Source: a virus
IMG/VR virus record: IMGVR_UViG_3300046782_000740
Coordinates: 1 to 62,775 of that record
Reading direction: 5' to 3' (one strand)
DNA: 62,775 nucleotides
The notes under the pieces are model-generated. The model was given only the letters and a program-made list of their open reading frames with translations, ran no database searches and had not been told where the DNA came from. Below are positions 7,001 to 62,775 of the stretch, one piece after another; the first letter of the stretch is position 1; the number at the start of each line of letters is the position of its first letter. The position numbers were made by a program, and so were the translations under genes.

Positions 7001-9347
7001 CGACGCGCTTCTTGGACTTGGGATCCCAGATGCCGAAGCTCTCGGAGTTGCCGGAGTCAGCACCGGCACCCTCGTCGATCTGGGCCTGATTCTCGATGTC
7101 GAGCGGGTTGTCCTCGTTGAGCCCCAGCACGTTCCTGGCCTTGGCGGCAGCGGCAATCTGCTCGGGAGTGGCGACCGTGCCCAGCCGACGCGGGTCGTTG
7201 ATGTCGACGGTGCCCGTCAGCCCTGCCTGCGTTGCCTGTTCGTTACCCGCTGGGGTGCGGCCCTGCTCCTGATCGGCGCGCTGCCAGTCGGAAGCGCCAG
7301 GCGTCCAACCTGTCTTGTTCTCTTCAGCCGGCTTAGCTGTCTCAGTTGGGGCAGCCGCCGCCGTCGTCGCCGTCGGTGCGGGGGTGGGTGCCCCCGTCGC
7401 TGCTGCGGATGGAGCAGGGGTGCTGGCAGCAGGGGTGGACTTGTCGGTACCGCCCGAGCGTATCTCCTTGATCTGGTCCATCAGATCGTTGTAGACAGCC
7501 ATGCCGCGCTCGTCGGTGCCCGTGTCGTAGTGCTTGACGCCGCGCGATCCGCCGTAGTCGATATCCGTCTGCATACCCGGCGGCATGTAGATGTCCGTCG
7601 AGGTCATGATCGGCTTCGGGTTGGCGATGTCGTAGGCCGTCTTCTCGATCCGCGAGATGGCCTCGGCGCGCGTGACCTTGCCGGTCTTGATATCCTCTTC
7701 GAGCTTCTGCCTGTCGAGCGGCGCCTTCAGCAGATCGTCCCTGGCCTTGGCCGCGTCGGCCTGCAGCTTCTCCAGCGTGGCCTGTTGGGTCGGCAGGTAG
7801 AACTGGCTTTCGTCGATGGTCTGCAGCGTCTTCTTCGGGTCGCGCGGGTCGTACTGCACGGTCTTGCCGTTGATCGTGTCGACCTTCATGTCGTGCGGCG
7901 GCTCGTACGCCACGCTGGGAGATTCGCCAGGAGCGGTCGGCAGCTTGACCACGGCGTTGCCGACGACCTTGTAGCCGTTCTCGACGTCTGCCGGACCCAG
8001 CGGAGAGGTATCGCCAGTGTTCTTGTTGATCAGCCACATCTGACCGCTGGCGTCTTTCTGGGTGTCGTAGATGCTGGCCGTGGATAGCGAGGTCGCCGAC
8101 TTCAGGTTCTGAATGTCGACCTTGCCCTGCTGCAGCGAGTTGGCCTGTTGCTTGGCAGCGGCCTGCGCCGTGGCGGTCGCCTCGGGATCTGGATCCCACT
8201 TTGTACCGTCGGCGCTGAGCTTGAAGACCTGTGTATACGTGGTGCCCGGGAAGATGGTCTTGACGTTGCCCGCCTGACCAGGCGTGACGGTCTTGGGGGT
8301 CGCGGGCTTCTGGCTGACGCCCAGGTCGAACTTGTTGTTGGGATCCTTCTTGTCGACGAGGAAGCGGTGCATCAACCCGTCGTCGCCCCGAAGCTCGGTG
8401 GGGAAGTGCGTATCGGGCCCGACCCCCGCGCCCGTCATCTGCTTGCGTACATCAGGCGGGTACGGCACGAAGTCGGTCGTACCTTTGATTGGGTCAGGAT
8501 TACCAGGCAGGAAGTAACCCATCGGCACGGGTGGTTTGGACTTGTCGTTCGGATCGTCGGGAACTTGCCAGGCAGACTGGTACCTGCCGTCGGCGCCCTT
8601 CCTGAACTCGACGTGATAGCCGGGCAACGCGGCGATGCCGTTGGCTGCAGCAATGTCAGATTCACCCGGCTCTGGGAAATACTTCGAGGGGGCAGCGGGC
8701 GCTCCAGCCGTAGCCGCAGCAGGAGGCGCTGGCATCTGCGTGGCGGGCTGCTGTTGCACGGGTTGGGTACCGTTCGACTGATCTGGCACCTCGTCGGTGG
8801 TGCCCGAGAAGTCAGGGCGCCTGAGCGGATCTGGTGCTTCCTGGCCAGCGCCGAAGTCCGCGCCGTTGCCGACCATCGAGCCGCGCTGCGAGAAGTCGCG
8901 CGTCTCGGGACCGGTGGCCTGCAACTGCGGGCCTGGGCCCGTGCCGTACGGGTGTGCCGAGATGGGCGGCTGGCCTGGCGAGAACGAGTTGTCGCGTGCG
9001 GACTGCGCTGGCGCGTAGCGTCCATTGCCGGTGGTGCCTGGCGGTGAGCCGGGCGAGGCAATGCCTGGGCCCATCGTCATACCCCAGTCGACGCCTGCCC
9101 CCATACCCATGCCCGCGTCGTGCGGCATCAGGCTGTAGTTCAGCTTGTCGGAGGGCGCCAACACGCCAGGGCCGTGCACCTCGTTGGTGTCGGGCGTGTA
9201 GTTGATCAGGTGCGCAGGCGCCTGGGTTCCCGGAGGGGATGCCAGCACATGTGGCTGGGGGTGTGTGAGGCCGTCCATGCCGTGCTCGGCCTGCAGCCGC
9301 TCGGCGGGTTTGTGGGACGACAGCGACGGTGGTTGCCAGAACGCCAT
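4008..9347 (-). CDS. Giant virion protein with M23 endopeptidase domain (1779 aa)
   Basis: Mostly disordered Pro/Gln/Gly-rich sequence around one folded enzyme domain. Residues about 1145-1290 form a lysostaphin-type M23 zinc peptidase: His1184 and Asp1188 (HSGVD) and the HLH pair at 1265-1267 are all present, so it should be active on peptide cross-links. Residues about 1440-1570 are a charged coiled coil. Short GAG-x-[DE] motifs recur through the linkers and in the next gene. The start overlaps the previous stop (TGATG). The TGA at 4008 is followed in the same frame by the 2651-aa giant. By position and domains, an internal or tail-tip protein acting on the cell wall at entry. Confidence 0.9.
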   Translation of the reverse strand: MAFWQPPSLSSHKPAERLQAEHGMDGLTHPQPHVLASPPGTQAPAHLINYTPDTNEVHGPGVLAPSDKLNYSLMPHDAGMGMGAGVDWGMTMGPGIASPGSPPGTTGNGRYAPAQSARDNSFSPGQPPISAHPYGTGPGPQLQATGPETRDFSQRGSMVGNGADFGAGQEAPDPLRRPDFSGTTDEVPDQSNGTQPVQQQPATQMPAPPAAATAGAPAAPSKYFPEPGESDIAAANGIAALPGYHVEFRKGADGRYQSAWQVPDDPNDKSKPPVPMGYFLPGNPDPIKGTTDFVPYPPDVRKQMTGAGVGPDTHFPTELRGDDGLMHRFLVDKKDPNNKFDLGVSQKPATPKTVTPGQAGNVKTIFPGTTYTQVFKLSADGTKWDPDPEATATAQAAAKQQANSLQQGKVDIQNLKSATSLSTASIYDTQKDASGQMWLINKNTGDTSPLGPADVENGYKVVGNAVVKLPTAPGESPSVAYEPPHDMKVDTINGKTVQYDPRDPKKTLQTIDESQFYLPTQQATLEKLQADAAKARDDLLKAPLDRQKLEEDIKTGKVTRAEAISRIEKTAYDIANPKPIMTSTDIYMPPGMQTDIDYGGSRGVKHYDTGTDERGMAVYNDLMDQIKEIRSGGTDKSTPAASTPAPSAAATGAPTPAPTATTAAAAPTETAKPAEENKTGWTPGASDWQRADQEQGRTPAGNEQATQAGLTGTVDINDPRRLGTVATPEQIAAAAKARNVLGLNEDNPLDIENQAQIDEGAGADSGNSESFGIWDPKSKKRVDLQPSQQPDAEQSNSPNMLGSDFEKLGDPLGLGTAIDIGAGHEGWTPKMGAGIDFHPLDPKSWGSSEPPAQPGDEQAHKDEVQRRYDEAMRGLENPHQQDQHDQPKDEPMRGEAWNPTSGADEDEEASRAEDEAAWSEQEKPPPEAPLPPDPFTQKPDIGDWRDVTQGYGGTEPETPFDPPKGESQKYPQLPWDLPPTDPREWIRAEPDDVHREPERNNSTPVEQGPPLGHTPEVTPPTGNPSWWDEFQKKQQSLGQGQGHAPPVTPLPQGGGHAPPVPQPKLPGMPGLSFFGAGADSPPPPAAGGGAPGGLPPGVPPDIEMLRGQMGGAPPAGGAPPPTAGGVPSPGAPAPGSPPNAGAMPGPGGTPGPGSPGWTPPVPPGDVAGIGHRFGQEMNQGEPVHSGVDLQAPEGTDTIAPVDGMVESIEDDPEGLGLVVMIRGNDGTLHKLGHLKSTELYRGAQVAKGQNLATQVGSTGNTTGSHLHWAVRDPQGQPVDPTGALGSMASLPPVPGTQMMGPPGGSSSPSGGSPPMPPQPGAPPPQQPPMGGGQDNADSRWDLYEQKDKQSFWGNGNQQSPITASVQSVKRQQQQPVGQQPPPQQQPLGQQPQQQQQPTDQQQMGTGNQNLWDDRAISRDASDMGAGGEWGMGAGAGAVAMTPSQQAQIDALNRQIDEKIRNDKAIEEQNKTNEDNRHNETLKKIDQDWAIHQDQDKRQQEINAENERHNQESEKIQREQIQSTKDIEQMRDATQIKMTEMSEGNKVYLQEGSQAFTDWQTTQKNKMDILGSALQNPWLQKLQGMTPGPGYQGQAVGGQNLSNLINSILQPYDPTKYGVENTPNYTGFGSAGYNPGGGAQGSVAAGSTGAAQPGGQLPQQGSTTPAGGTGQPITAQQWQSWDPFQKAAYRTDQEALGPGVWAQQSNDLAGNFLQQGLDPNVTRMQSAAGGAVGRAGAEMTADIFGQTPQNFWDQQNRQWSQAQAPQVKQQYSQGTSGIAG

Positions 9348-20567: not shown

Positions 20568-21446
20568 ATGGCACTACGCAGAAACAAAAGCACGGGTGGC
20601 TGGGAGCGTCAGCAGCCCGATGGCACATGGTTAGAGGTGGCGGGTCCGAGCGCCGCGCCGCCCGTCGGGGTCGCCGCTCCCGTAGCGGACTCGCTCGACG
20701 CGGCGCTGGACGAGGCATTCGACGCCGCGCTGGACGAGGCATTCGAGGCGTCCCAAAAACCCACCGAGCCCGTATCGGCGAATGGCTCCCAGGATTCGGC
20801 AGAGCCTGCGCCTGCTGCTTCGGTCAGTGAGCCGTCCCCCACGCTTGAGGCTGCCGTCGTCGAGGGCCAATTCACCGAGGTGCCCAGCGACGGAGCACAG
20901 GTTGTTGAGGGTGCTGCGGACGCGGGGCTCGACTTCGACATCCCTGGGCTGACGTCCTCAGACGGATCCAAAGGCACCAGGGGCGCCGCCGGTGTGCGCG
21001 ACCGCCTGATGGCCCGTCGGGGCACGGGAGGCCGCTCCACAGTTAGTGGTGCTCGCTCGGGTACGGGCGAGGGCACGGTGGTGGTAGCCGAGCGCGCCGC
21101 TCGGGCAAGCGGCCCCGCCGTCCGCGACGGCACCGAGGCCAGAGGACGCAGGGGGCGTTCTGGCGCACCCAGTCGGCCATCCACAGTTGGGTCGGGGACC
21201 GCTTCTGGTGGAGCGGCCAAGGCTGCCAGGTACACCGCGAAACCTGCGCCGGGTATCCTGAGTTCGTCTCCGAAGTGGGTACAGGATCTGTTCGAGGCGC
21301 ACTTCCGTTCGGACATGACGCTTCGGCTTCGACGGGAAAACAACCGGATGAAGATCAGTCGGCAGGACTATGCAATCGGGTGGCTGACGCTGCTGGCCAA
21401 GGTGAAGGAGGATCCGAGCATCCTGCGACTGAAGGACAAGGGGTAG
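20568..21446 (+). CDS. Disordered protein with C-terminal helical domain shared with previous gene (292 aa)
   Basis: Start set at the ATG at 20568; AAGGAG lies 12 bases upstream, and a TTG at 20559 is a less likely start. Residues 1-25 form a small ordered region, about 30-230 are Ala/Gly/Ser/Pro-rich linker with an acidic repeat (DEAFDAALDEAFEA), and about 235-290 are a folded domain with SRQDYAIGWLTLL, matching the 86-aa neighbour. The linker becomes Arg-rich toward its end, suggesting nucleic-acid contact. Own strong promoter. Function unknown; the two proteins may form heteromers. Confidence 0.85.
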   Translation: MALRRNKSTGGWERQQPDGTWLEVAGPSAAPPVGVAAPVADSLDAALDEAFDAALDEAFEASQKPTEPVSANGSQDSAEPAPAASVSEPSPTLEAAVVEGQFTEVPSDGAQVVEGAADAGLDFDIPGLTSSDGSKGTRGAAGVRDRLMARRGTGGRSTVSGARSGTGEGTVVVAERAARASGPAVRDGTEARGRRGRSGAPSRPSTVGSGTASGGAAKAARYTAKPAPGILSSSPKWVQDLFEAHFRSDMTLRLRRENNRMKISRQDYAIGWLTLLAKVKEDPSILRLKDKG

Positions 21447-21461
21447 GGAGAGGGGGCTGAC

Positions 21462-21493
21462 TTTACCTAGCCGGTAAAAGGGAAAAATTTTTT
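21462..21493 (+). terminator. Probable Rho-independent terminator
   Basis: TTTACC-TAGCC-GGTAAA (21462-21478) followed by a purine run and six T at 21488-21493. The stem is AT-rich and weak, but its place 15 bases after a stop codon and the T run fit a terminator. Confidence 0.5.
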
Positions 21494-22640
21494 GGGGGCT
21501 CGCACCGTCCCCGAATAGCGCCCCAAGTGGTGCGTAGCACCACGGGGGGGCGCCTCCCCCCCTGCTTGCAGGGGGGGAGCTTCGCTGCGCGCGCGGCGGC
21601 GGCGGCGCTGGGCGGGGGTGCCCCCCGCTTAGCGCGTGCCTGCCGCTAGCTGCAGCGTACCCGCGCCGCGTGGCGCAGCGCATGGGGTGCAGGGCGTGCG
21701 CAGCACGCCCTCCAACACCCATGCCCGCTGCCCATGCGGCAGCGCCTGGCCGCGCGCTGGCGTGGCGGAAGCGGGGCATACGCCCGCTCACCGCCGCGCA
21801 GTGCGCGCTGCGCAAGAGCGCACCTCCAGGCCAGGGCTACGGCGCAGCCGTCGCCCACTGGCCAGGAGGCGAGCACGGTCGCTGCCCATCGGGCAGCGCA
21901 GGCCAGGCCGTGCGCCTTCGGCGCACGACCCGAGCCTGGCGCGGCGGACGCCGCTCCTGCCCCAGCGACAGCCAGCGGCACGCTGCGCTGCAGCGCTGCC
22001 GTCGGTCGGCGCGCCGCCGTGCGCGGCGTCTGCGTCGAGCGTGCTCGGCTCGCGCGCCCCGCGCCCATCGCCTCGTTGCTGGCAAGCGGCGCTTGCCTGC
22101 GTGCGGCAACGCCCCGAAGACTGGCCTGGGCGGCGAGCCGCCCGGGCCAGGCGAACAGCAGGGGAGATAGCCGAGCGCTGCTCGGCCCATCTTCTGCGCT
22201 CACGGGCACAGCGGCGGAGCGACTTCGTCGTTCCGCTTGGGCACGTGCTCGTGCGGCCCACATGCCGCGACCTCTGGCGTCGGACGTCTGCCCTGGCCGC
22301 GCGCTATCGTCGCGTCCGCGCGGGCTCGCGGCCCCTCGCCAGATCCACACGCGCGTCCCTCGCACAGTGGGACGCGGGCTTGCCCAGCGTCGCACCTCCC
22401 GCCTTTCGTTGGTTGCGCGGGTTCGGCGTAGCCGACCACGCGCGGTCGCGGCCGTCGCTGCCTCCGAGGTCTCAGGTTGTCGCCGGGGCGAACCTCTTGG
22501 GATGGCACCAGCAGACCACACGCTGGCATTTCAAATGTAACCCAGCGGTAAAGGGAGCAAGCTCCCCCGTCACCTGCCAAGGGGCGACACACAGTGAGTC
22601 GGCAAGCCGACCGCCCGCAAGGGGCTCTCACTGTGACTCG
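21494..22640. other. Non-coding hairpin array, about 1.15 kb
   Basis: Very GC-rich and packed with perfect or near-perfect inverted repeats, mostly 7-14 base arms with 2-4 base loops. Examples: arms 21527-21533/21537-21543 inside 21518-21524/21547-21553; 21554-21565/21568-21579; 21692-21699/21703-21710; 21880-21887/21891-21898; 21909-21916/21920-21927; 22081-22087/22091-22097; 22121-22134/22137-22150 (14 bases, one G-T); 22170-22176/22180-22186; 22214-22223/22227-22236; 22352-22359/22369-22376. Long ORFs exist in several frames on both strands but are Arg/Ala/Pro/Ser-rich, lack ribosome sites and overlap one another, so I do not call a gene. Possibly a large structured RNA, a packaging site or part of the origin. 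Confidence 0.7.
22591..22634 (+). other. Three-way-junction inverted repeat upstream of promoter P2
   Basis: Outer arms ACAGTGAG (22591-22598) and CTCACTGT (22627-22634) enclose two small hairpins: TCGGC-AA-GCCGA (22599-22610) and a CCC-GCAA-GGG stem with a GNRA-type loop (22614-22623). It ends 15 bases before the -35 box of P2. Could be a regulatory or primer-site fold. Confidence 0.6.
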
Positions 22641-22648
22641 CCTTATCC

Positions 22649-22677
22649 TTGACAGGAGCCGGCCACTGTGTTACTAT
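22649..22677 (+). promoter_or_regulatory. Promoter P2
   Basis: TTGACA (22649-22654), 17 bases, TACTAT (22672-22677). Differs from the rest of the family after the -35 (GGA instead of AYC) and in spacer length. Precedes the SSB-like operon. Confidence 0.7.
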
Positions 22678-22728
22678 ATTTGATGCCAGCGGTGGAGCCG
22701 CTGAGCCACACCAAGGAGGTTGCCCCTC

Positions 22729-23133
22729 ATGGCAACAACCCTCGATACCCTCGTCGGGAGCAGCGACTCCCCCCGCGACCGCTCGGTCGTGGTCGACTAC
22801 AGCGCCGAACTCCGCAAGCACACCAACGAGAAGAGCGGCGAGGTCAGCTACGCGCTGGTCATCTCCCCCGTCTTCTCCACTGGTGCGAAGGGCCGCAACG
22901 CGCTGTGGATCTGGCTCGATGGGCCCGCTTCGCTCCGCGCCTTCCGCGACTCGATGCAGCGCACGGCCAAGGGCATCGACGCTCTCGACGCCAAGATGGT
23001 CGCGGCCAAGGAGTGGGCCGCCCGACCAGTCGCGCCCAAAGCGGAAGCGGGCAAGCCCGCCTCCTCCGCCGCTGCGCCCGTTGAGGCTCCGAAGACGGTC
23101 CTCGACAACGCGCTCTCCGATCTCCCCTTCTGA
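22729..23133 (+). CDS. Single-stranded-DNA-binding-like protein with SSB-type tail (134 aa)
   Basis: ATG at 22729 behind an AAGGAGG site and promoter P2. An N-terminal beta-rich region of about 85 residues precedes an Ala/Pro linker and a C-terminus ending LSDLPF, which matches the conserved acidic-hydrophobic tail of bacterial SSB (consensus D-D-D-I-P-F) that recruits partner proteins. The core does not obviously match a standard SSB OB-fold by eye. Length is slightly short for SSB. It lies just upstream of the origin-like region, which fits a replication role. Stop overlaps the next start (TGATG). Confidence 0.6.
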   Translation: MATTLDTLVGSSDSPRDRSVVVDYSAELRKHTNEKSGEVSYALVISPVFSTGAKGRNALWIWLDGPASLRAFRDSMQRTAKGIDALDAKMVAAKEWAARPVAPKAEAGKPASSAAAPVEAPKTVLDNALSDLPF

Positions 23134-23546
23134 TGTTCGCCTGGCTGGGGCGCGCGCTTGCGCCCCAGGCCGTTCTTCGGAGCATTGCCATGCACACGCA
23201 GGAAATCGCCACTATTCGCCAGCAACTCGCGGACATCCGCGCGTGGCTCGCTGAGACCGAGCACAAGCTCGACCGCATGACGCTCGCGCCCAAGGCGGCG
23301 CCGCTGTCGACCGACGAGATCATCGCTGCAGCGTCCAGCGCGACCGCTGTCTACAAGTCGCTGGAGCAGGAACTCGGCGTCGACCGCCGCACCATCCTGG
23401 CTCGGGTCGAGCGCCTGGTCAAGGCGCACAACCTGGCCGAGCGCTTCCCCGAGTGGGGCACCGACCTCAAGCTCGCCAAGTACCTGGCCGAGCGGGTCGA
23501 CGGCGACCGCCGCCGCATCACCGTGGCTCTGGAGGCGCTCTCATGA
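23133..23546 (+). CDS. Helix-turn-helix-like protein (137 aa)
   Basis: Starts in TGATG overlap with the SSB-like gene; an internal ATG at 23190 (MHTQEIATI) is also possible. Residues about 20-48 form a coiled coil, and about 70-105 (SLEQELGVDRRTILARVERL) look like a winged-helix DNA-binding motif. Possibly a regulator or origin-binding protein given the neighbourhood. ATGA overlap with the next gene. Confidence 0.7.
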   Translation: MFAWLGRALAPQAVLRSIAMHTQEIATIRQQLADIRAWLAETEHKLDRMTLAPKAAPLSTDEIIAAASSATAVYKSLEQELGVDRRTILARVERLVKAHNLAERFPEWGTDLKLAKYLAERVDGDRRRITVALEALS

Positions 23547-23553
23547 GCGCCTC
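23532..23553 (+). promoter_or_regulatory. Start-codon hairpin of the 43-aa gene
   Basis: Nine-base arms (23532-23540 and 23545-23553) with loop TCAT; the ATG start codon at 23543-23545 sits at the loop. Such a fold could make translation depend on ribosomes arriving from the upstream gene. Confidence 0.55.
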
Positions 23554-23674
23554 GCGCCACCCCGCGCACAGGGGTGAGCGGCGCGCGCTTCGCGCCATCG
23601 ACCAGCGCAAGCGCGACCAGGCCGCTGCCCGCAAGGCAGCGCGCGCCCTGGTCAGTTGGAGGGCGGCTCGATGA
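23543..23674 (+). CDS. Small Arg/Ala-rich basic protein (43 aa)
   Basis: ATGA overlaps on both sides. Very basic and helical (RALRAIDQRKRDQAAARKAAR), with one Trp near the end. No ribosome site of its own, so it is probably translated by coupling. No family recognised. Confidence 0.55.
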   Translation: MSASRHPAHRGERRALRAIDQRKRDQAAARKAARALVSWRAAR

Positions 23675-23680
23675 GCCGCC
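23662..23680 (+). promoter_or_regulatory. Start-codon hairpin of the 56-aa gene
   Basis: Eight-base arms (23662-23669 and 23673-23680) around a GAT loop; the ATG at 23671-23673 is at the loop, as in the preceding gene. Confidence 0.55.
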
Positions 23681-23841
23681 TTCCCCTCCTGCGCTGCGGC
23701 TACTGCGGGCGCATGATCTCGCAACAGCGCGGCAAGCCCGCGCCCCACAAGTGGGTGCAGGCTCCGCGACCAGGCGCTCGCGCCTCTGGCCCGTGGTGCG
23801 TCGGCGGCGCGCGGCAGCTACCGCTCCCCGGGCTCGGCTAA
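23671..23841 (+). CDS. Small CxxC protein (56 aa)
   Basis: ATGA overlap with the previous gene. Residues 8-13 (RCGYCGRM) give a CxxC knuckle and a single later Cys (WCVGG) might complete a zinc site. The rest is Pro/Gly/Arg-rich. Function unknown. Confidence 0.55.
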   Translation: MSRLPLLRCGYCGRMISQQRGKPAPHKWVQAPRPGARASGPWCVGGARQLPLPGLG

Positions 23842-23892
23842 CGCCGGGCCTTCGCTGCCCTACCGGGCCGCTGTCGCGGCCCTCGCCTCGCA

Positions 23893-24012
23893 CTAGCCCG
23901 CCCCCCTGCGGGGCGGGCACCGGCTGGCTGCGCCAGCCGGAAGCACCTGGCACGGCGCGCGCTCCGCGCGCTGGGCCAGGCGCGCCGCTCCCCCTGCGGG
24001 GGGCGGGCTAGC
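23893..24012. other. 120-base nested inverted repeat
   Basis: Perfect 13-base outer arms, CTAGCCCGCCCCC (23893-23905) and its complement (24000-24012), enclose further hairpins: CCGGCTGGC (23920-23928) with its complement after a 3-base loop, a GCGCGC stem inside CCTGGC/GCCAGG, and a CCCC-CTGC-GGGG hairpin next to the right outer arm. The left outer arm can alternatively pair locally (CCCGCCCC with GGGGCGGG), so two folds compete. It sits between the 56-aa gene and the origin-like region. Confidence 0.7.
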
Positions 24013-24111
24013 TTGTCCGAGGCCGACGGCTGGGCCCTGCGGCTTGCGGAGTCTTGCTGCCGGCTAAAACAAGAGGCCCGAGCGCGCACAGGGGCACCAC
24101 CCCCTGGGTAC

Positions 24112-24393
24112 ATTAGCAAACGCCCTGATTGTTACGTCAACCGGTGTTCTGTCTACTAGACATAACTATCTGGGGTTTTGCTAATAACACGCCGGATGTT
24201 GCATATACAGGCCCGGATAGCCTATATGCTATTCCGGCGTAAATAACCGGTAACAATCCCGGTCTTTATGGTGTGGATAAGAACAGGCCCGTTTTCAGGG
24301 TACCGGGCCTAACATCCACATTTGCCACGCCGTAAGCTCCCCGGTAACGGCTCTCGGAGCCGAAAAAGGGCCATTCCTTATCCACACCATAAG
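24112..24393. other. Probable replication origin with two perfect DnaA boxes
   Basis: Clearly AT-richer than its surroundings and free of genes. Two perfect DnaA boxes (TTATCCACA) lie in opposite orientation at 24272-24280 and 24378-24386, within 16-base inverted repeats 24266-24281 and 24377-24392. Other inverted repeats: ATTAGCAAA 24112-24120 with 24176-24184; a 6+6 palindrome around TGTCTACTAGACA; an imperfect nested palindrome at about 24191-24238 (GCCGGA, GCATATA, GGC arms); and AGGCCCG with CGGGCCT at about 24285-24309. DnaA is the bacterial initiator, so use of host DnaA is inferred. Confidence 0.65.
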
Positions 24394-24475
24394 AACCCAG
24401 GCTGTGATCTTGAGCCTTAGCCAATCGTGGATTAGATCCTTGCACAACCACAGACAACCTGCTAGGCTTCTGCCC

Positions 24476-48091: not shown

Positions 48092-50065
48092 TCATCGCCG
48101 CTGCTCGGTGCAGTACATGGTGCCGTAGCTGATCGTGCTCACTCCTGCGTTCATGTTGAGAAAGACGGCAACGCGATGACTACCAGCCGGCATCGTGTAG
48201 TACACAACGCCCGACGCGGAGCAATAGTAGTTCGCGCCTGGGGTGTGGATGACGTGCGTTCCAACCCACAGTCCGCCGTCGATGCCGATGCCGAGATTGA
48301 TAATGGCCCCGGCTATGGAGTTGTAGAACGAGAGGCTCCACTCAATCCGCACGTTCAGTCCACCGGTGTACGTCCCGATGACCGCCACCGACGTCTCCAG
48401 CCAGCCGGCAGCGCCGGTTGACCAGCCGCCGCCAACGCCATTGAATGACCCTATGATCGCTTGCGCCGCGCCAGCCGCGAGCATCGGCGTGGTGACCGAG
48501 CCAGCAGGCAGAGATAGGGAGTTGGTGGCGGTTATCCCATAAGCCTGGAAGTTGCCCCAAGCAGTCAGGCCACTGGTCATCGTCACCGCACCGGTGTAGT
48601 CGATGATCACTGCGTCGGTGAGCGCGGCGTCGGTGACGACGCGCCGCGTGGCAATGTTCAGTGAACCCAAGCTGTTGGGTTGACCGTTCGCCAGGAAGCC
48701 TTTGATGCCTGCAAAGGCGATGTTGTTGCCAGCACCAAACAAAAGCACCCCGCCGTTGCCTGCGTTCTGGTTCGTGTCGTGCAGTGCGAGCAGCCCCCCG
48801 CCGACGGTCAGCCCCAGGCCGCTGGTGTTGTTGTAGCCAGCCCAGGTGGTGGCCCCCACGCCGTAAATCTCCGCCTGGGCATTCGTAGCAGAGCCGCCGC
48901 CGACCGTTAGCAGGGGCGTGACCATGCTGGTACCGGCGTATACCGTACGCGGCCTCTGGCTAGGCCAGCCGACATCCATCTGGTTGTCCTGCCCCGGTAC
49001 CCAGTGACCCGCGTTTCCCTCCACGCCCCACTTGGTCGCGGCGTTGACCTGAAGCCTGACCGCGCTACCCGACGTGATGAAGAACGTGTTGCTGCCAGCG
49101 TCCCAGATCATCGGGCGAGCCACACCAGTACCGTTGGCCTGGACTCCGATAGCTACCTGATTCGCCGCCCAGTTGATCCTGAAGCGCTCCCAGTTGTTGG
49201 CGTCGGAGTACGTGTTGTAGATGTACAGACTCTGTGCGTTCAGCCCGTTGCGCTGCTCCACCACGTTGCCAGCCGGAGCCAGCAGTGGGGTATCGACCAG
49301 TGGCGTGACCACGCTGGTGCCGGCGTAGATGGTGCGGGGTCTCGATGCTGCTGCGGCGCCGATGTCGTAGGTGTTGTCGGTGTTCCACATCAGCGTGTTG
49401 TTGAGCAGCGTCACGCCCGCGTTGTACAGACCGACGTTTCCGGCGCCTGACTGGTTGCTGATGTACACACCGTAGGCAATGCTGACCCCCGCAACGCCCT
49501 GGTTGTCCACGTATAACCCGTACATGCTCCCGACCCCGCTGCCGGATCCTAACGACGGTGCTCCCGCACGCAGCACATACCCACTGGTCAGGTTGGCCGC
49601 GACCGCTGTCGTATGCAGCCTGGCATAGACGCCGTAGAACGTGCCGAATGCAACAGCCGGAACCACAGGATCGACCTGAACCCCGTAAAAGAGGCTGCCG
49701 CTGAAGCTACTGCTGGGACTGCCGATGTACAGGGACGAAGAAGTCAGCCCCCCACTGCCAATACCCACGTTGCCAGTCAGGTTGCTGCCACCAGTCACGT
49801 ACAGCGTGTTGGTGACCCTTAGCTGTCGGCCCACATATACGTCGCGCGGCCTGCTCGCCGCCGTGGCGCCAATGTCGTAGGTGTTGTCAGGGCTGAACGT
49901 CAGGTTCTGCGTCAGCGGCAGCGTGAGCCCCCCGCCACCCCCCGACTGGTCTGCCCAGCCCATGGCGTAGTCGACGCTTGAGTTCTTGACCAGCACCTGA
50001 CCGGTCGTGCCGCCCATCGGAATGGGGTTCTTGAGGTCGAGGTTGGTGACAAGCTGGCGGGACAT
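48092..50065 (-). CDS. Modular tail fiber (657 aa)
   Basis: Contains several copies of a module like TFSPDNTYDIGA..RPRDVYVG, at about residues 55-80, 240-262 and, degraded, 355-375, linked by beta-rich shaft segments. The C-terminal about 130 residues form a globular domain with aromatic strands. The same module occurs in the fiber at 50485-52113. Repeats of this kind occur in fibers of many environmental phages. Probably a trimeric fiber or spike; no depolymerase motif recognised. Confidence 0.8.
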   Translation of the reverse strand: MSRQLVTNLDLKNPIPMGGTTGQVLVKNSSVDYAMGWADQSGGGGGLTLPLTQNLTFSPDNTYDIGATAASRPRDVYVGRQLRVTNTLYVTGGSNLTGNVGIGSGGLTSSSLYIGSPSSSFSGSLFYGVQVDPVVPAVAFGTFYGVYARLHTTAVAANLTSGYVLRAGAPSLGSGSGVGSMYGLYVDNQGVAGVSIAYGVYISNQSGAGNVGLYNAGVTLLNNTLMWNTDNTYDIGAAAASRPRTIYAGTSVVTPLVDTPLLAPAGNVVEQRNGLNAQSLYIYNTYSDANNWERFRINWAANQVAIGVQANGTGVARPMIWDAGSNTFFITSGSAVRLQVNAATKWGVEGNAGHWVPGQDNQMDVGWPSQRPRTVYAGTSMVTPLLTVGGGSATNAQAEIYGVGATTWAGYNNTSGLGLTVGGGLLALHDTNQNAGNGGVLLFGAGNNIAFAGIKGFLANGQPNSLGSLNIATRRVVTDAALTDAVIIDYTGAVTMTSGLTAWGNFQAYGITATNSLSLPAGSVTTPMLAAGAAQAIIGSFNGVGGGWSTGAAGWLETSVAVIGTYTGGLNVRIEWSLSFYNSIAGAIINLGIGIDGGLWVGTHVIHTPGANYYCSASGVVYYTMPAGSHRVAVFLNMNAGVSTISYGTMYCTEQRR

Positions 50066-50080
50066 CTGGGCTCCTGGGGT

Positions 50081-50488
50081 TTACCGTGGGTGGGCCGCTG
50101 TAGGCACGAAGAAGAGGTACTGGTAGATCTGGATACTGCCGGACACGAAGTACGACTGCGACCACGCCATGTACCACTGCGTGCTCGCGGCCATGTCCGC
50201 GTAATACGCATAGCCCCAGTTCATGTCGTTGCCGGAGTACGCCTTGAGTTGCTTGGTGGGCGCCATTTGGTTGCCGCCGTTGAGTCGAACAGCGATGTTG
50301 AAGCTCGGGTTGTCCTCATTGGTTGAGAGGTTGCCCGTCATGCTCACGTAGAACATCCAGCGCCCAACACGGTCGGTGTAGATCGGCACCGCATTCTGAC
50401 CACCGGAGCCAGTGCCGATGTTATAGCCACCCTGATTGGAGATCTGGATGGGCGGTTCAACCGGAAACTTGCTAGGCAGGTAGGTCAC
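50081..50488 (-). CDS. Small fiber-cluster protein, beta-rich (135 aa)
   Basis: Starts MTYLPSKFPVEPP and has Gly/Asn/Tyr-rich, beta-strand-like sequence with many aromatics (WGYAYYADM, WYMAWSQSYF). Size and place between two fibers suggest a separate fiber head or chaperone. Overlaps the preceding stop (ATGA). Confidence 0.7.
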   Translation of the reverse strand: MTYLPSKFPVEPPIQISNQGGYNIGTGSGGQNAVPIYTDRVGRWMFYVSMTGNLSTNEDNPSFNIAVRLNGGNQMAPTKQLKAYSGNDMNWGYAYYADMAASTQWYMAWSQSYFVSGSIQIYQYLFFVPTAAHPR

Positions 50489-52113
50489 ATGATCATCCAG
50501 CCGACGTAGCCAGAACTTGCAAATACCGTGATCGACTCCCCCTGCTGAAGCGTATACGGGTTGACCCAGCCCGTGGAGTAGATGCCGTTGCCATTGGTGA
50601 CATACACGTTGAACGCCGCGCCGGTAACGTTCTTGACGTAGTACACTCTCCCATACACGTAGTTCAGGTCTGGCAGGTAGACATAGGTGCCGGTGTTGAT
50701 GACCGCGAGATCGGTGGTGACGCCGAGCGTGACGTTGCCGCCAGTCTCCACGCGGTAGAGCATGTCGGCACGCTGGTGCGACTGGAGCAGTTCGTTGGGA
50801 GCGTAGGAGCCCGCGTAGAAACGCGGCCCGATGGTGTCGCCGAACGTGATCCCGATGCCGTAGGTGGTGTTGTAGATCCCACAGGCGCCGTTCATTCGCA
50901 TCCAGCCCAGGTGCTGCACCCCGTCGGCCATCGTGCAGCTAGCCCCGATTGCCGCGTTGTTGAGCGGGCCGTTGCAGTTGATCGTGGCTGCCGCTAGCGG
51001 GCCAGGCGTCACCGTCAGGTTGTTGGCCGCAACGTAGGACGAGCCGTAGTCCGAGAGTACCCCGCCGCCTGGGAACTTGATTGAGCCCGTGACCGTGATC
51101 CCCGTGGAGTCAACCATCAGTCGCTGCGCATGCGAAGCCGGGTTGGCACCTGCCGCAACGGTGTTGAAAGTCATTATCCCAGCGCCGATGACGATCAGCG
51201 ACGAGGCAGCCGACGTGTCGTAGCGCATCCAGTTGGTGCCGTCGAAGTAGGCATTGCTGGTCAGGTTCACGCCGACCTTGCCGCCTTCGAGGATGGCCGA
51301 CGTGGGCGACTCGATGACCAGATAGTTGGCAGCGCCAGGCGCGATGTGCAGGATCGGCGCGTTTACCCCAGCGGGACCAATGGCGAGCGTACCCGGCACC
51401 GTAGCGTTGTGGCTCAGGTACAGGTCGCGCGGCCTGCTCGCTCCGCTCGCGCCGATGTCGTATGCGCCGTCAGGGCTGAACGTCAGGGGCTGGCCCAACG
51501 GCAGCGTGATCCCCCCAGACTGTGCCGCCCAGGCCACGTTGTAGTCCGCAGTCGCGCTCTTCTGCAGCACCTGACCGACGGTGCCGCCTGCTGGCACGGC
51601 GCCTGGGCCGACGAACGACGTGGCCGCATAGACCGTGCGCGGCCTGCTGGCGCCAGCGATGCCGACGTCGTAGGTGTTGTCTGGCGAGAACAGCAGGGAG
51701 GCAGCTAGCGTCGTTGCACCCAGGCTGGTCTGTCCCGTCACAGCCAACGTACCGGCAACCGTCGCGTTGCGGCCCAGGAACAGGTCACGCGGTCTACTTG
51801 CAGCGCTGGCACCAATGTCGTAGGTCGCATCGGGGCTGAACGTCAGGGGCTGACCCAGCGGCAACGTCACCCCCAGGTTGAGGGTGGTCCACCCAACGGC
51901 ATAGTTGGTAGCGCTGGTCTTGGCCAGCACCTGGCTGGTCGCGCCGCCGGTAGGTACCGAGCCAGGCCCGCTGATAGAGCCTGTGACCTGTAGCGTGTTG
52001 GCGATAGTGACAGGCTGATCGGCCATCACCCCGGTCAACAGGTCGGCGTACTGTTTGATGTCAGCGTGGGCGATGAGGCCCTTGTTGATCAGTCGGCTGG
52101 TGTCGAGGGGCAT
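50485..52113 (-). CDS. Modular tail fiber (542 aa)
   Basis: Start at the ATG at 52113, four bases after the nozzle gene's stop; upstream codons of this frame are a shadow. N-terminal anchor MPLD..., DIKQYADLLTG, ADQPVT matches the 507-aa fiber. Three copies of the SPD-x-x-YDIGA..RPRD module lie at about 75-180, then a beta-rich shaft and a globular C-terminus ending in an aromatic strand (ASSGYVGWMIM). Probably a tail fiber. Confidence 0.8.
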   Translation of the reverse strand: MPLDTSRLINKGLIAHADIKQYADLLTGVMADQPVTIANTLQVTGSISGPGSVPTGGATSQVLAKTSATNYAVGWTTLNLGVTLPLGQPLTFSPDATYDIGASAASRPRDLFLGRNATVAGTLAVTGQTSLGATTLAASLLFSPDNTYDVGIAGASRPRTVYAATSFVGPGAVPAGGTVGQVLQKSATADYNVAWAAQSGGITLPLGQPLTFSPDGAYDIGASGASRPRDLYLSHNATVPGTLAIGPAGVNAPILHIAPGAANYLVIESPTSAILEGGKVGVNLTSNAYFDGTNWMRYDTSAASSLIVIGAGIMTFNTVAAGANPASHAQRLMVDSTGITVTGSIKFPGGGVLSDYGSSYVAANNLTVTPGPLAAATINCNGPLNNAAIGASCTMADGVQHLGWMRMNGACGIYNTTYGIGITFGDTIGPRFYAGSYAPNELLQSHQRADMLYRVETGGNVTLGVTTDLAVINTGTYVYLPDLNYVYGRVYYVKNVTGAAFNVYVTNGNGIYSTGWVNPYTLQQGESITVFASSGYVGWMIM

Positions 52114-61600: not shown

Positions 61601-62775
61601 GTCCAGATTGCCGAAGCCCTGGAAACCCTCCAGGCTGTTGAGCGGGATCATGCCCTCGGGTACCTGCCGCCCGCGCGCCCTGACCACGTCGGCGCCGCTC
61701 AGGATGTCGCTGCCCTTGCTGCCTGGGCTGACCAGATCCATCAGGTTGCCGAGGAGTTCCGGTCGGTTGACCGACGCCTCCTGTGCCAGCTTGTCGACGA
61801 ACGCCTGGTTCGAGGCCGACTGGATGGCGCGCGTGTAGTAGTTGCCCAGCACCGTGGGCAGATCGTCCACGTACTGCGCGCCGTTGGCCTGGCCCTCGAT
61901 CATCGTGCGGTAGTCGCGGCTCTTGTTGTAGGTGCTGAACGGGTTGCGGTTGAACCGCCCGCCGCCACCGGGTCGCTTGCCTTCTTCGGCCCCCCTGGTG
62001 GTCGCCGCCGCCCACTCCTTGTCGAGCACGTGGGGCACGTACATCTTGGCCTGGCCCGCGCCTTCGAGGCCCAGCGGATCCTTGACGATGTCGTATTTGC
62101 GCGCCCACTCAGAGACGGCCTGCCAGCGGTCGAAGGCTGCCTGTGCTCCAGGCAGATCCTTTACCCGGTTCGGCAGTCGACCCAGCATCTCCATCTCTGC
62201 CGCCAGGTCGGCGTTGGCCAGGTCGCCGAAGACGCTGCGCCACTGATCGGCCAGTTGTTCGCCGGCGTTCTGCGACATCGCGTGGTTCCCGACCAGCGCC
62301 GCGTACGCATCCCTGGCGGGCTTGCTGAGCTTCGTGGCGGGGGCCAGCAGTTCCTGCCCCGCCTCGATGGCAGCTTTGCCGACGGTCTTGCTGATGCCCG
62401 TGGCGATGTACGGCGCGCCTATCCCCAGCGCGAAGCCGAGCATGCCTTTGGTGACGGCCTTGCCGTAGTGGTTCGGGTCGTTCTCGTCGCCGTATGCCAG
62501 TTCCGAGCCGCCCGCCAGCGCTCCCGTGGCCAGCCCGCCAGCGGTGCGCTTGACGATACCCGGTGCTCCAGCCGCTGCCTCGGCAGCAGAGGCGATGGCG
62601 TCGTGCAGGACGCCAGCCTTCTCGGCAGGGATCGACGCCACGCGCTTGGCCATGTCCATCGTGGATGCGGCGCTGGTTTTCGCCTGCGCCGCGTCGGCGG
62701 CAGCCTTGGCCGAGTCGCTCGCCCACCACGGCTGACGGGCGAAGAAGACGTCGTCGGGCATAGCCCTGCCTGCCA
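58619..62775 (-). CDS. Giant virion protein, C-terminal part (residues about 1268-2651)
   Basis: This is the same open frame as 1-4007, read through the circular joint; the ATG at 62761 is internal (residue about 1272), equivalent to position 194. The stretch is largely helical with Gly/Ala-rich segments and no clear enzyme motif. It resembles the helical rear parts of large polyvalent phage proteins (LPD38-like), including a segment around 60.85 kb containing LAPDW. That family link is from memory and weak. The gene ends with TAG at 58619, directly before a 58-aa gene with an AGGAGG site. Likely packaged in the head or core and ejected with DNA. Confidence 0.8.
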   Translation of the reverse strand, partial: AGRAMPDDVFFARQPWWASDSAKAAADAAQAKTSAASTMDMAKRVASIPAEKAGVLHDAIASAAEAAAGAPGIVKRTAGGLATGALAGGSELAYGDENDPNHYGKAVTKGMLGFALGIGAPYIATGISKTVGKAAIEAGQELLAPATKLSKPARDAYAALVGNHAMSQNAGEQLADQWRSVFGDLANADLAAEMEMLGRLPNRVKDLPGAQAAFDRWQAVSEWARKYDIVKDPLGLEGAGQAKMYVPHVLDKEWAAATTRGAEEGKRPGGGGRFNRNPFSTYNKSRDYRTMIEGQANGAQYVDDLPTVLGNYYTRAIQSASNQAFVDKLAQEASVNRPELLGNLMDLVSPGSKGSDILSGADVVRARGRQVPEGMIPLNSLEGFQGFGNLDDVHISPELATVLKNYAGSGDSIWDSALLRQSRNINSIFKHNTLSGSAFHLLNEVRQTFATQGAEAPVNLGKIMWQTTFPGGFRQFMTTNGPLARQAEKDGLTLNVVADRMDNLNLPQRWGLAAMNAGIGSVAGYQTALNSGETNEDALKTALATGIISGAAGSPVIKLDALSPERRSLVEHLSHAMWDRWIPALKLTTYEMYAPEFGGRDAASFVNSVFGGQNLLAIARSRSVQNAASMAALAPDWQEGFARLAGNALFNWGKDAPQGDMARKYWSNALVQHAVVLEGMNLAFGGQFSWQNDPDATLQVNAGRFYDMMGWDHTDPKTGQSYTPYWDILGPFRSMIEPVQETARAATAGAYTASGYDLNKLPLHDEVAGKWGQIPPPDPAGSVGRFISSRAGWLASTAGEVRANYDFAGRPIDQADDNEVQRAINRVWMITNHMQPTGTGEGLKDVAKGDPWPVALFSAATGMRTKREDETTKFFQWQDQFVNENKKNTQDWANLRADSRAQSQAIDQKIEAIQSGAKKNDDGSDMTPRDRNNQIAALAAQRPTQKKDLQGLIDKRNLPDGPEKDELQRQLKEMLSYDIVSGGNDPVDLTGRTDIDPADLFNKAWNKDPSAVDRLTRTSPKPIDFGQGMGASFAESGLGDTLRDVIHNPPGSTSSKELQGLRAQWTEDYAKTWGIDPAVMQDYVKANLYDLPNKTPPPLTGVTSSQLDDIVQGWQDKGLSQNNQPITDPGTAARLRQEYVMATAQELGLDPKDLAQRIKLRNLPMADTTPAGLSRSRALDVLSDSRYYPYQNADGSPKDGPAEWQEYDKKLSAARNRFEFVQKDGKGFYMKDGKVDPELTGLFEDKQRATAYRYRSVFNSPNKDDYYRWFGDGANLTDKQWEQYQAGTLDMWHDNPDPREAKNRNTAMRVWAGLTPEERWTYGIPEAGGGKPITYSALGPTGKMESRSSSLAGYINYINTYKNNHYVLGDIDPNPQQAVSSAGG
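62568..62775. repeat. Right copy of the terminal overlap (circular joint)
   Basis: Repeats bases 1-208 with a single silent difference (62648 g versus 81 a). The overlap length and the mismatch suggest two molecules of a mixed population or a sequencing error, not an exact k-mer overlap. Confidence 0.9.

Follow-up and report, generated by a model that had tools for sequence, protein, structure and literature searches.

E. coli is known to undergo inverted duplication around interrupted palindromes (Darmon et al. 2010, PMC3315005), and SbcCD cuts long palindromes during replication (Azeroglu et al. 2014, PMC4245961). In yeast, template-switch inverted copies arise at short inverted repeats located at a replication fork, a process termed ODIRA (Martin et al. 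2024, PMC10766183). Template switching also makes imperfect inverted repeats of bacteria more perfect (PMC7202029), and RNA hairpins are generated and maintained by it (PMC8794818). At the phage locus described here, an array of GC-rich hairpins is, judged from sequence comparisons, a dead, reversed and broken copy of the four adjoining genes.

The window, i.e. the whole stretch of DNA analysed, comprises the 62,775 nt of the IMG/VR record IMGVR_UViG_3300046782_000740. It carries an 80-nt exact direct repeat near both ends (1-80 and 62568-62647) and ORFs run off both ends; an exact terminal repeat at the window ends was not found, the matching bases being only those 80. Related IMG/VR contigs, including L004, L005 and L006 and the more distant L016 and L017, were used for comparison.

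Positions 21494-22640 had been predicted to be a non-coding array of GC-rich hairpins, denser than the GC content should give. Perfect hairpins were counted when they had arms of ≥ 7 bp and loops of 2-8 and did not overlap; the stretch contains 10, and 100 dinucleotide shuffles gave 2.06 ± 1.48 (maximum 6), so that the shuffled controls did not reproduce the hairpin density. The RNA fold of 21500-22499 reached z = -10.4 on the plus strand and -8.2 on the minus strand, both being more stable than all 20 shuffles. The hairpin excess is therefore genuine and exceeds what the GC content (up to 0.74-0.78 within the stretch) would give, and the region is non-coding and unusually structured, as the original prediction held. 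The 14-base arms reported at 22121-22150 do form the longest near-perfect hairpin, although the arms are not perfect; the longest perfect arms measure 12 bp (21554-21565/21568-21579).

21525-21580, no strand assigned: left edge of the array; hairpin GTGGTGC-GTA-GCACCAC followed by a G-run/C-run hairpin
22121-22150, no strand assigned: longest near-perfect array hairpin; 13 Watson-Crick pairs and one T.G among 14

The window was compared with itself, and positions 21706-22548 matched the reverse complement of 22663-23665 (blastn, E 7e-65, 71% identity, 18% gaps). An alignment with low gap penalty extended the match to 21574-22548 versus 22663-23829, with z 61 against shuffles. Outside gaps the array is ~90% identical to its source, from which it differs by ~100 small deletions; the outermost ~100 nt match most weakly. 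The array is thus collinear, in reverse complement, with an intact source adjoining it. The longest near-perfect hairpin aligns with the boundary of genes A and B, which likewise forms a hairpin (23145-23168). The following features are involved:

21574-22548, minus strand: main body of the array; genes A-D in inverted, degenerate form, 1167 nt of source reduced to 975 nt
22571-22658, plus strand: centre of the inverted duplication, with basal stem, apical stem and two hairpins; from folds of the window, L004 and L006 and a three-sequence alignment
22649-22677, plus strand: promoter-like site of gene A, TTGACA-17-TACTAT
22663-23829, plus strand: source arm, promoter-proximal leader and copied gene block; from blastn and the alignment with low gap penalty
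22729-23133, plus strand: gene A, 134 aa; homologs in L004, L005 and L006
23133-23546, plus strand: gene B, 137 aa, all-helical model; homologs in L004, L005 and L006
23543-23674, plus strand: gene C, 43 aa, small basic protein; similar ORFs after gene B in L004, L005 and L006
23671-23841, plus strand: gene D, 56 aa, one CxxC motif; similar ORF in L005 (5117-5359)

Genes A-D form a block of four genes after the promoter-like site, and the proteins of A and B were aligned across four phages. Because A and B have homologs in three relatives and the surrounding gene order is conserved, the genes are taken as the original and the array as the copy. The source is conserved in relatives and the reading frames are lost in the copy, where 88 of 100 deletions (79 of 93 in L004) are not multiples of three. 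The AlphaFold2 model of gene A (pLDDT 69.6) shows a beta-beta-beta-alpha arrangement and a disordered tail ending in DLPF; Foldseek returned weak matches, including Pur-alpha and PC4, with a best E of 0.07. Since these matches are weak, ssDNA binding by the gene A protein is put forward tentatively, as a hypothesis from the model. A fold search with gene B gave no match.

The centre of the duplication overlaps the -35 hexamer of the gene A promoter. An inverted repeat is present there in the window, L004 and L006, and the three share a fold while their apical-stem sequences differ. RNAalifold on the centre found two-sided changes in 8 of 24 pairs, with many pairs broken in the automatic alignment and an unfavourable covariation term. 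A conserved fold of the centre, with mixed covariation support from three sequences, is suggestive only. It is possible that the structured centre is an origin or packaging element, for which it is a candidate. The centre motif ACCGCCCGCAAGGGGCTC was found in one further contig, L018, in which no array was seen.

The original prediction also stated that the genome has almost no spare bases, which did not hold, since other non-coding DNA lies nearby (about 23842-24475). A second hairpin-dense stretch, partly coding, extends over 23500-24060 (7 hairpins versus 1.2 in shuffles). Its part downstream of the gene block, 23842-24060, is a second cluster of perfect GC-rich hairpins (e.g. 23896-23918, 23920-23940 and 23955-23971), for which a copy relation to any gene was not detected. 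Between gene D and the next gene, an AT-richer non-coding stretch (24100-24475) carries CCGGTAAC-like and ACCGGT repeats; its counterparts are located at about 5780-6060 in L004, 5470-5820 in L005 and 5430-5830 in L006. This stretch is a candidate origin or control region.

At the corresponding locus, the related soil phage L004 also carries a stretch rich in GC and hairpins, copied in inverted orientation from the genes of L004 itself. Array versus own genes scored 695 against 69 ± 10 in the window (z 61) and 504 against 57 ± 6 in L004 (z 76), with ~90% identity outside gaps in each phage. Array versus genes across the two phages was near noise in both directions (z 2-2.5). The proteins of the two phages are only 29% (A) and 41% (B) identical; since each array nevertheless keeps ~90% identity to its own genes, the copies arose after the two phages diverged or have since been renewed. 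The copy starts 66-107 nt upstream of gene A in the window and L004 alike, whereas the outer ends differ, the window copy reaching close to the gene D end and the L004 copy stopping within gene B. An artefact of assembly or sequencing, namely a fold-back chimera with indel errors, was considered, since the contigs are metagenomic and an adjoining inverted copy rich in small indels looks like an erroneous fold-back read. Such an origin is highly improbable, as the same locus and centre recur in two phages, each with its own genes copied, and the array joins a left-edge motif common to the relatives. Moreover, hairpins strengthened beyond random placement and avoided long runs (see below) are unlike random read errors.

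Among the other relatives, L006 contains only ~90 nt of copy, at the promoter, and a convincing copy was not found in L005, L016 or L017. An inverted signal in L017 reached z 3.9 under one scoring scheme and vanished under two others. A weak signal in L016 (tiles 8001-8600) was rejected as an artefact of overlapping self-comparison. The long copies known are thus two, those of the window and L004, and a young, nearly perfect copy was not found among the stretches compared. Genome contig searches yielded no relative, and GenBank phages, searched by DNA and by the gene A protein, gave no match. The maximum inverted tile score is 269 here versus 47-58 in four other high-GC phages. No other convincing palindromic copy was found in the window or in the stretches of the relatives, where high scores were mostly due to direct repeats in repetitive genes.

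Several further repeats were observed. Diverged direct repeats of ~200 nt occupy window positions 49817-51970, both inside neighbouring minus-strand genes and between them; one of these genes is tail spike family-like. In the place of the array, L005 (3590-3745) shows CTCCGGTAAC motifs repeated in both orientations, along with a hairpin whose arms (ACTCCGTGAAC/GTTCACGGAGT) are 11 bp long. Dense, non-coding clusters of GC-rich hairpins lie near the same genes in L016 (7838-8150) and L017 (6295-6470), with no detectable similarity to genes. They may represent remnants too old to be recognised, or such clusters may simply be common in these genomes.

A giant structured RNA of the GOLLD, ROOL or OLE type had been suggested for the array. 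No Rfam family reached its gathering score anywhere in the window, the covariance models for GOLLD, ROOL and OLE included, and with relaxed thresholds nothing significant appeared in 21400-22720 or in L004 3600-4590. Nor were sequence and structure conserved with covariation among the relatives: the array of each phage tracks the genes of that phage and is therefore not conserved as one sequence. Array versus array, the window and L004 scored 230 against 80 ± 11, a value which includes the shared left edge and comes from simple shuffles that leave dinucleotides uncontrolled. The left edge by itself has an alignment score of 99 between these two phages, and similar motifs were seen by eye at the same place in L004, L005, L006 and L017. 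The array, a degenerate inverted gene copy, is neither a gene nor an RNA of the GOLLD, ROOL or OLE type.

The array could still act as RNA if a read-through transcript folded or paired with the mRNA of genes A-B and regulated the operon, bulges keeping RNase III away. Its position fits, upstream of the matching operon and where a read-through transcript could include it; a search for terminator-like sites separating it from the upstream gene found none. The changes favour structure in both phages as well. The inverted copy of the gene A promoter has, on the other hand, been lost, as no promoter-like site is found there. G-U wobbles favour neither strand clearly (20 versus 21 in the window, 13 versus 18 in L004). 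With sequence conservation absent, no copy in L005, L016 and L017, and ~90 nt only in L006, a regulatory RNA is regarded as quite unlikely.

The decay of the copies was then compared with simulations. Relative to the genes, the window copy shows 82 substitutions, 100 deletions and 20 insertions, and the L004 copy 54, 93 and 9, respectively; as re-alignment of simulated copies detects only about 70% of the events planted in them, the true numbers are higher. Deletions outnumber substitutions in both copies and exceed insertions 5 to 10 fold. They are mostly 1-3 nt long, AT-enriched and mostly not multiples of three; codon-phased or clearly periodic deletions were not found. Replication slippage was rejected for the window, where the deletions have no excess microhomology. 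When the same changes were placed at random, far less local structure resulted, and in both phages 0 of 200 simulations were as extreme in fold energy. At paired array positions, the base that was substituted would not have paired in 47 of 56 cases in the window and 24 of 31 in L004, counts which stand without a random baseline.

Long stretches of identity between array and genes are missing. The longest identical run is 12 nt in the window and 13 nt in L004, whereas simulated random decay, tuned to reach a comparable alignment score, left longest runs of 20.4 and 22.6 nt (minima 13 and 14 in 60 runs each). Runs of ≥ 12 nt numbered 1 in the window and 2 in L004 versus 8.2 and 8.2 in the simulations. 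A copy evolved for local structure alone reached the fold energy of the array with 73-92 edits and retained runs of 42-46 nt; selection for local structure alone was rejected, as it leaves long identical runs (~42 nt). A model in which changes prefer the long remaining runs gave values close to those observed, with a weighting that was chosen for fit. On the full single strand of 2 kb, 71-81% of the array bases still pair with the gene arm versus 84-85% in simulated decay; the escape from the giant hairpin is partial, because this pairing is only slightly below that of simulated decay.

Mutation alone might have remodelled the array, with quasipalindrome template-switch correction perfecting hairpins in dead DNA and deletion-prone replication of hairpins removing the rest. 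Template switching is known to improve the pairing of imperfect inverted repeats (PMC7202029) and to give rise to RNA hairpins and preserve them (PMC8794818), its products would persist in a non-coding array, and other intergenic DNA of the group also has hairpin clusters. Against this, most hairpins in the window carry edits relative to the source in both arms and not in one, and correction should yield insertions as well as deletions, at odds with their 5 to 10 fold difference. It also does not predict the loss of long identity between array and genes, as gain of structure alone leaves runs of ~42 nt. As a full explanation it is unlikely, but quasipalindrome correction may contribute. Selection against the giant palindrome fits the decay pattern best, even though the ~200 changes seem to exceed what taming a palindrome would need. 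The stronger proposal that phages or hosts actively recognise long inverted homology and erase it through small deletions placed at even intervals in the non-essential arm, down to runs of ≤ 12-13 nt, is a doubtful one; such a repeat-erasing process would be loosely comparable in purpose to fungal RIP, but deletion-based here.

Taken as a whole, it is considered likely that a large inverted duplication of fold-back origin left the array as its dead arm, which then decayed under the harm done by a palindrome. The self-comparison shows that the block A-D and its leader were copied in reverse to a place immediately upstream, around the structured promoter hairpin. The two long copies show that the copying occurred independently, or was renewed, about one and the same centre in different phages. 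From this common centre and the variable outer ends, we infer fold-back copying at the promoter hairpin: during replication the nascent strand may fold back there and copy its own arm. The resulting palindrome of ~1 kb per arm could be harmful through cleavage by hairpin nucleases, stalling of forks or annealing of strands. As SbcCD cleaves long palindromes, selection could favour broken long identity or local hairpins, and in keeping with the pattern in both copies, changes would be kept if they break the longest identical runs or strengthen local hairpins against the giant one. The coding arm cannot change, and the small deletions would therefore accumulate in the spare arm and turn it into short hairpins from end to end. 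A dedicated function of the array itself is improbable.

The data point to a natural hotspot for inverted duplication beside the gene of a candidate ssDNA-binding protein, a site which seems to make mirror copies repeatedly and then to erode their identity in an oddly even manner. A dead inverted gene copy can mimic a convincing structured RNA and is thus a trap for RNA discovery in phages. Even, deletion-rich decay with shared runs capped at 12-13 nt gives a quantitative signature for which other genomes can be searched; through it, the ways in which genomes put up with long palindromes or take them apart become testable.

GOLLD, ROOL and OLE RNAs, some of which occur in phages, are large, strongly structured and non-coding like the array, but the array derives from adjoining protein genes, matches no covariance model and has no conserved sequence. 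With quasipalindrome correction it shares hairpins that are more perfect than chance (0 of 200 simulations), whereas the one-armed signature is absent in the window and deletions dominate. Yeast ODIRA likewise yields inverted neighbouring copies, and fold-back copying is proposed here; the yeast amplicons are, however, large and nearly identical, while the array copy is short, adjacent and degraded. As in the palindrome-centred duplications of E. coli, the array is centred on a hairpin-forming interrupted palindrome and the product would be a replication hazard. The E. coli cases are large chromosomal events in engineered strains, in contrast to a natural phage event of ~1 kb, heavily decayed and with one arm coding. 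The array is a variant of palindrome-centred inverted duplication, a kind of event already known, and the variant itself is new.
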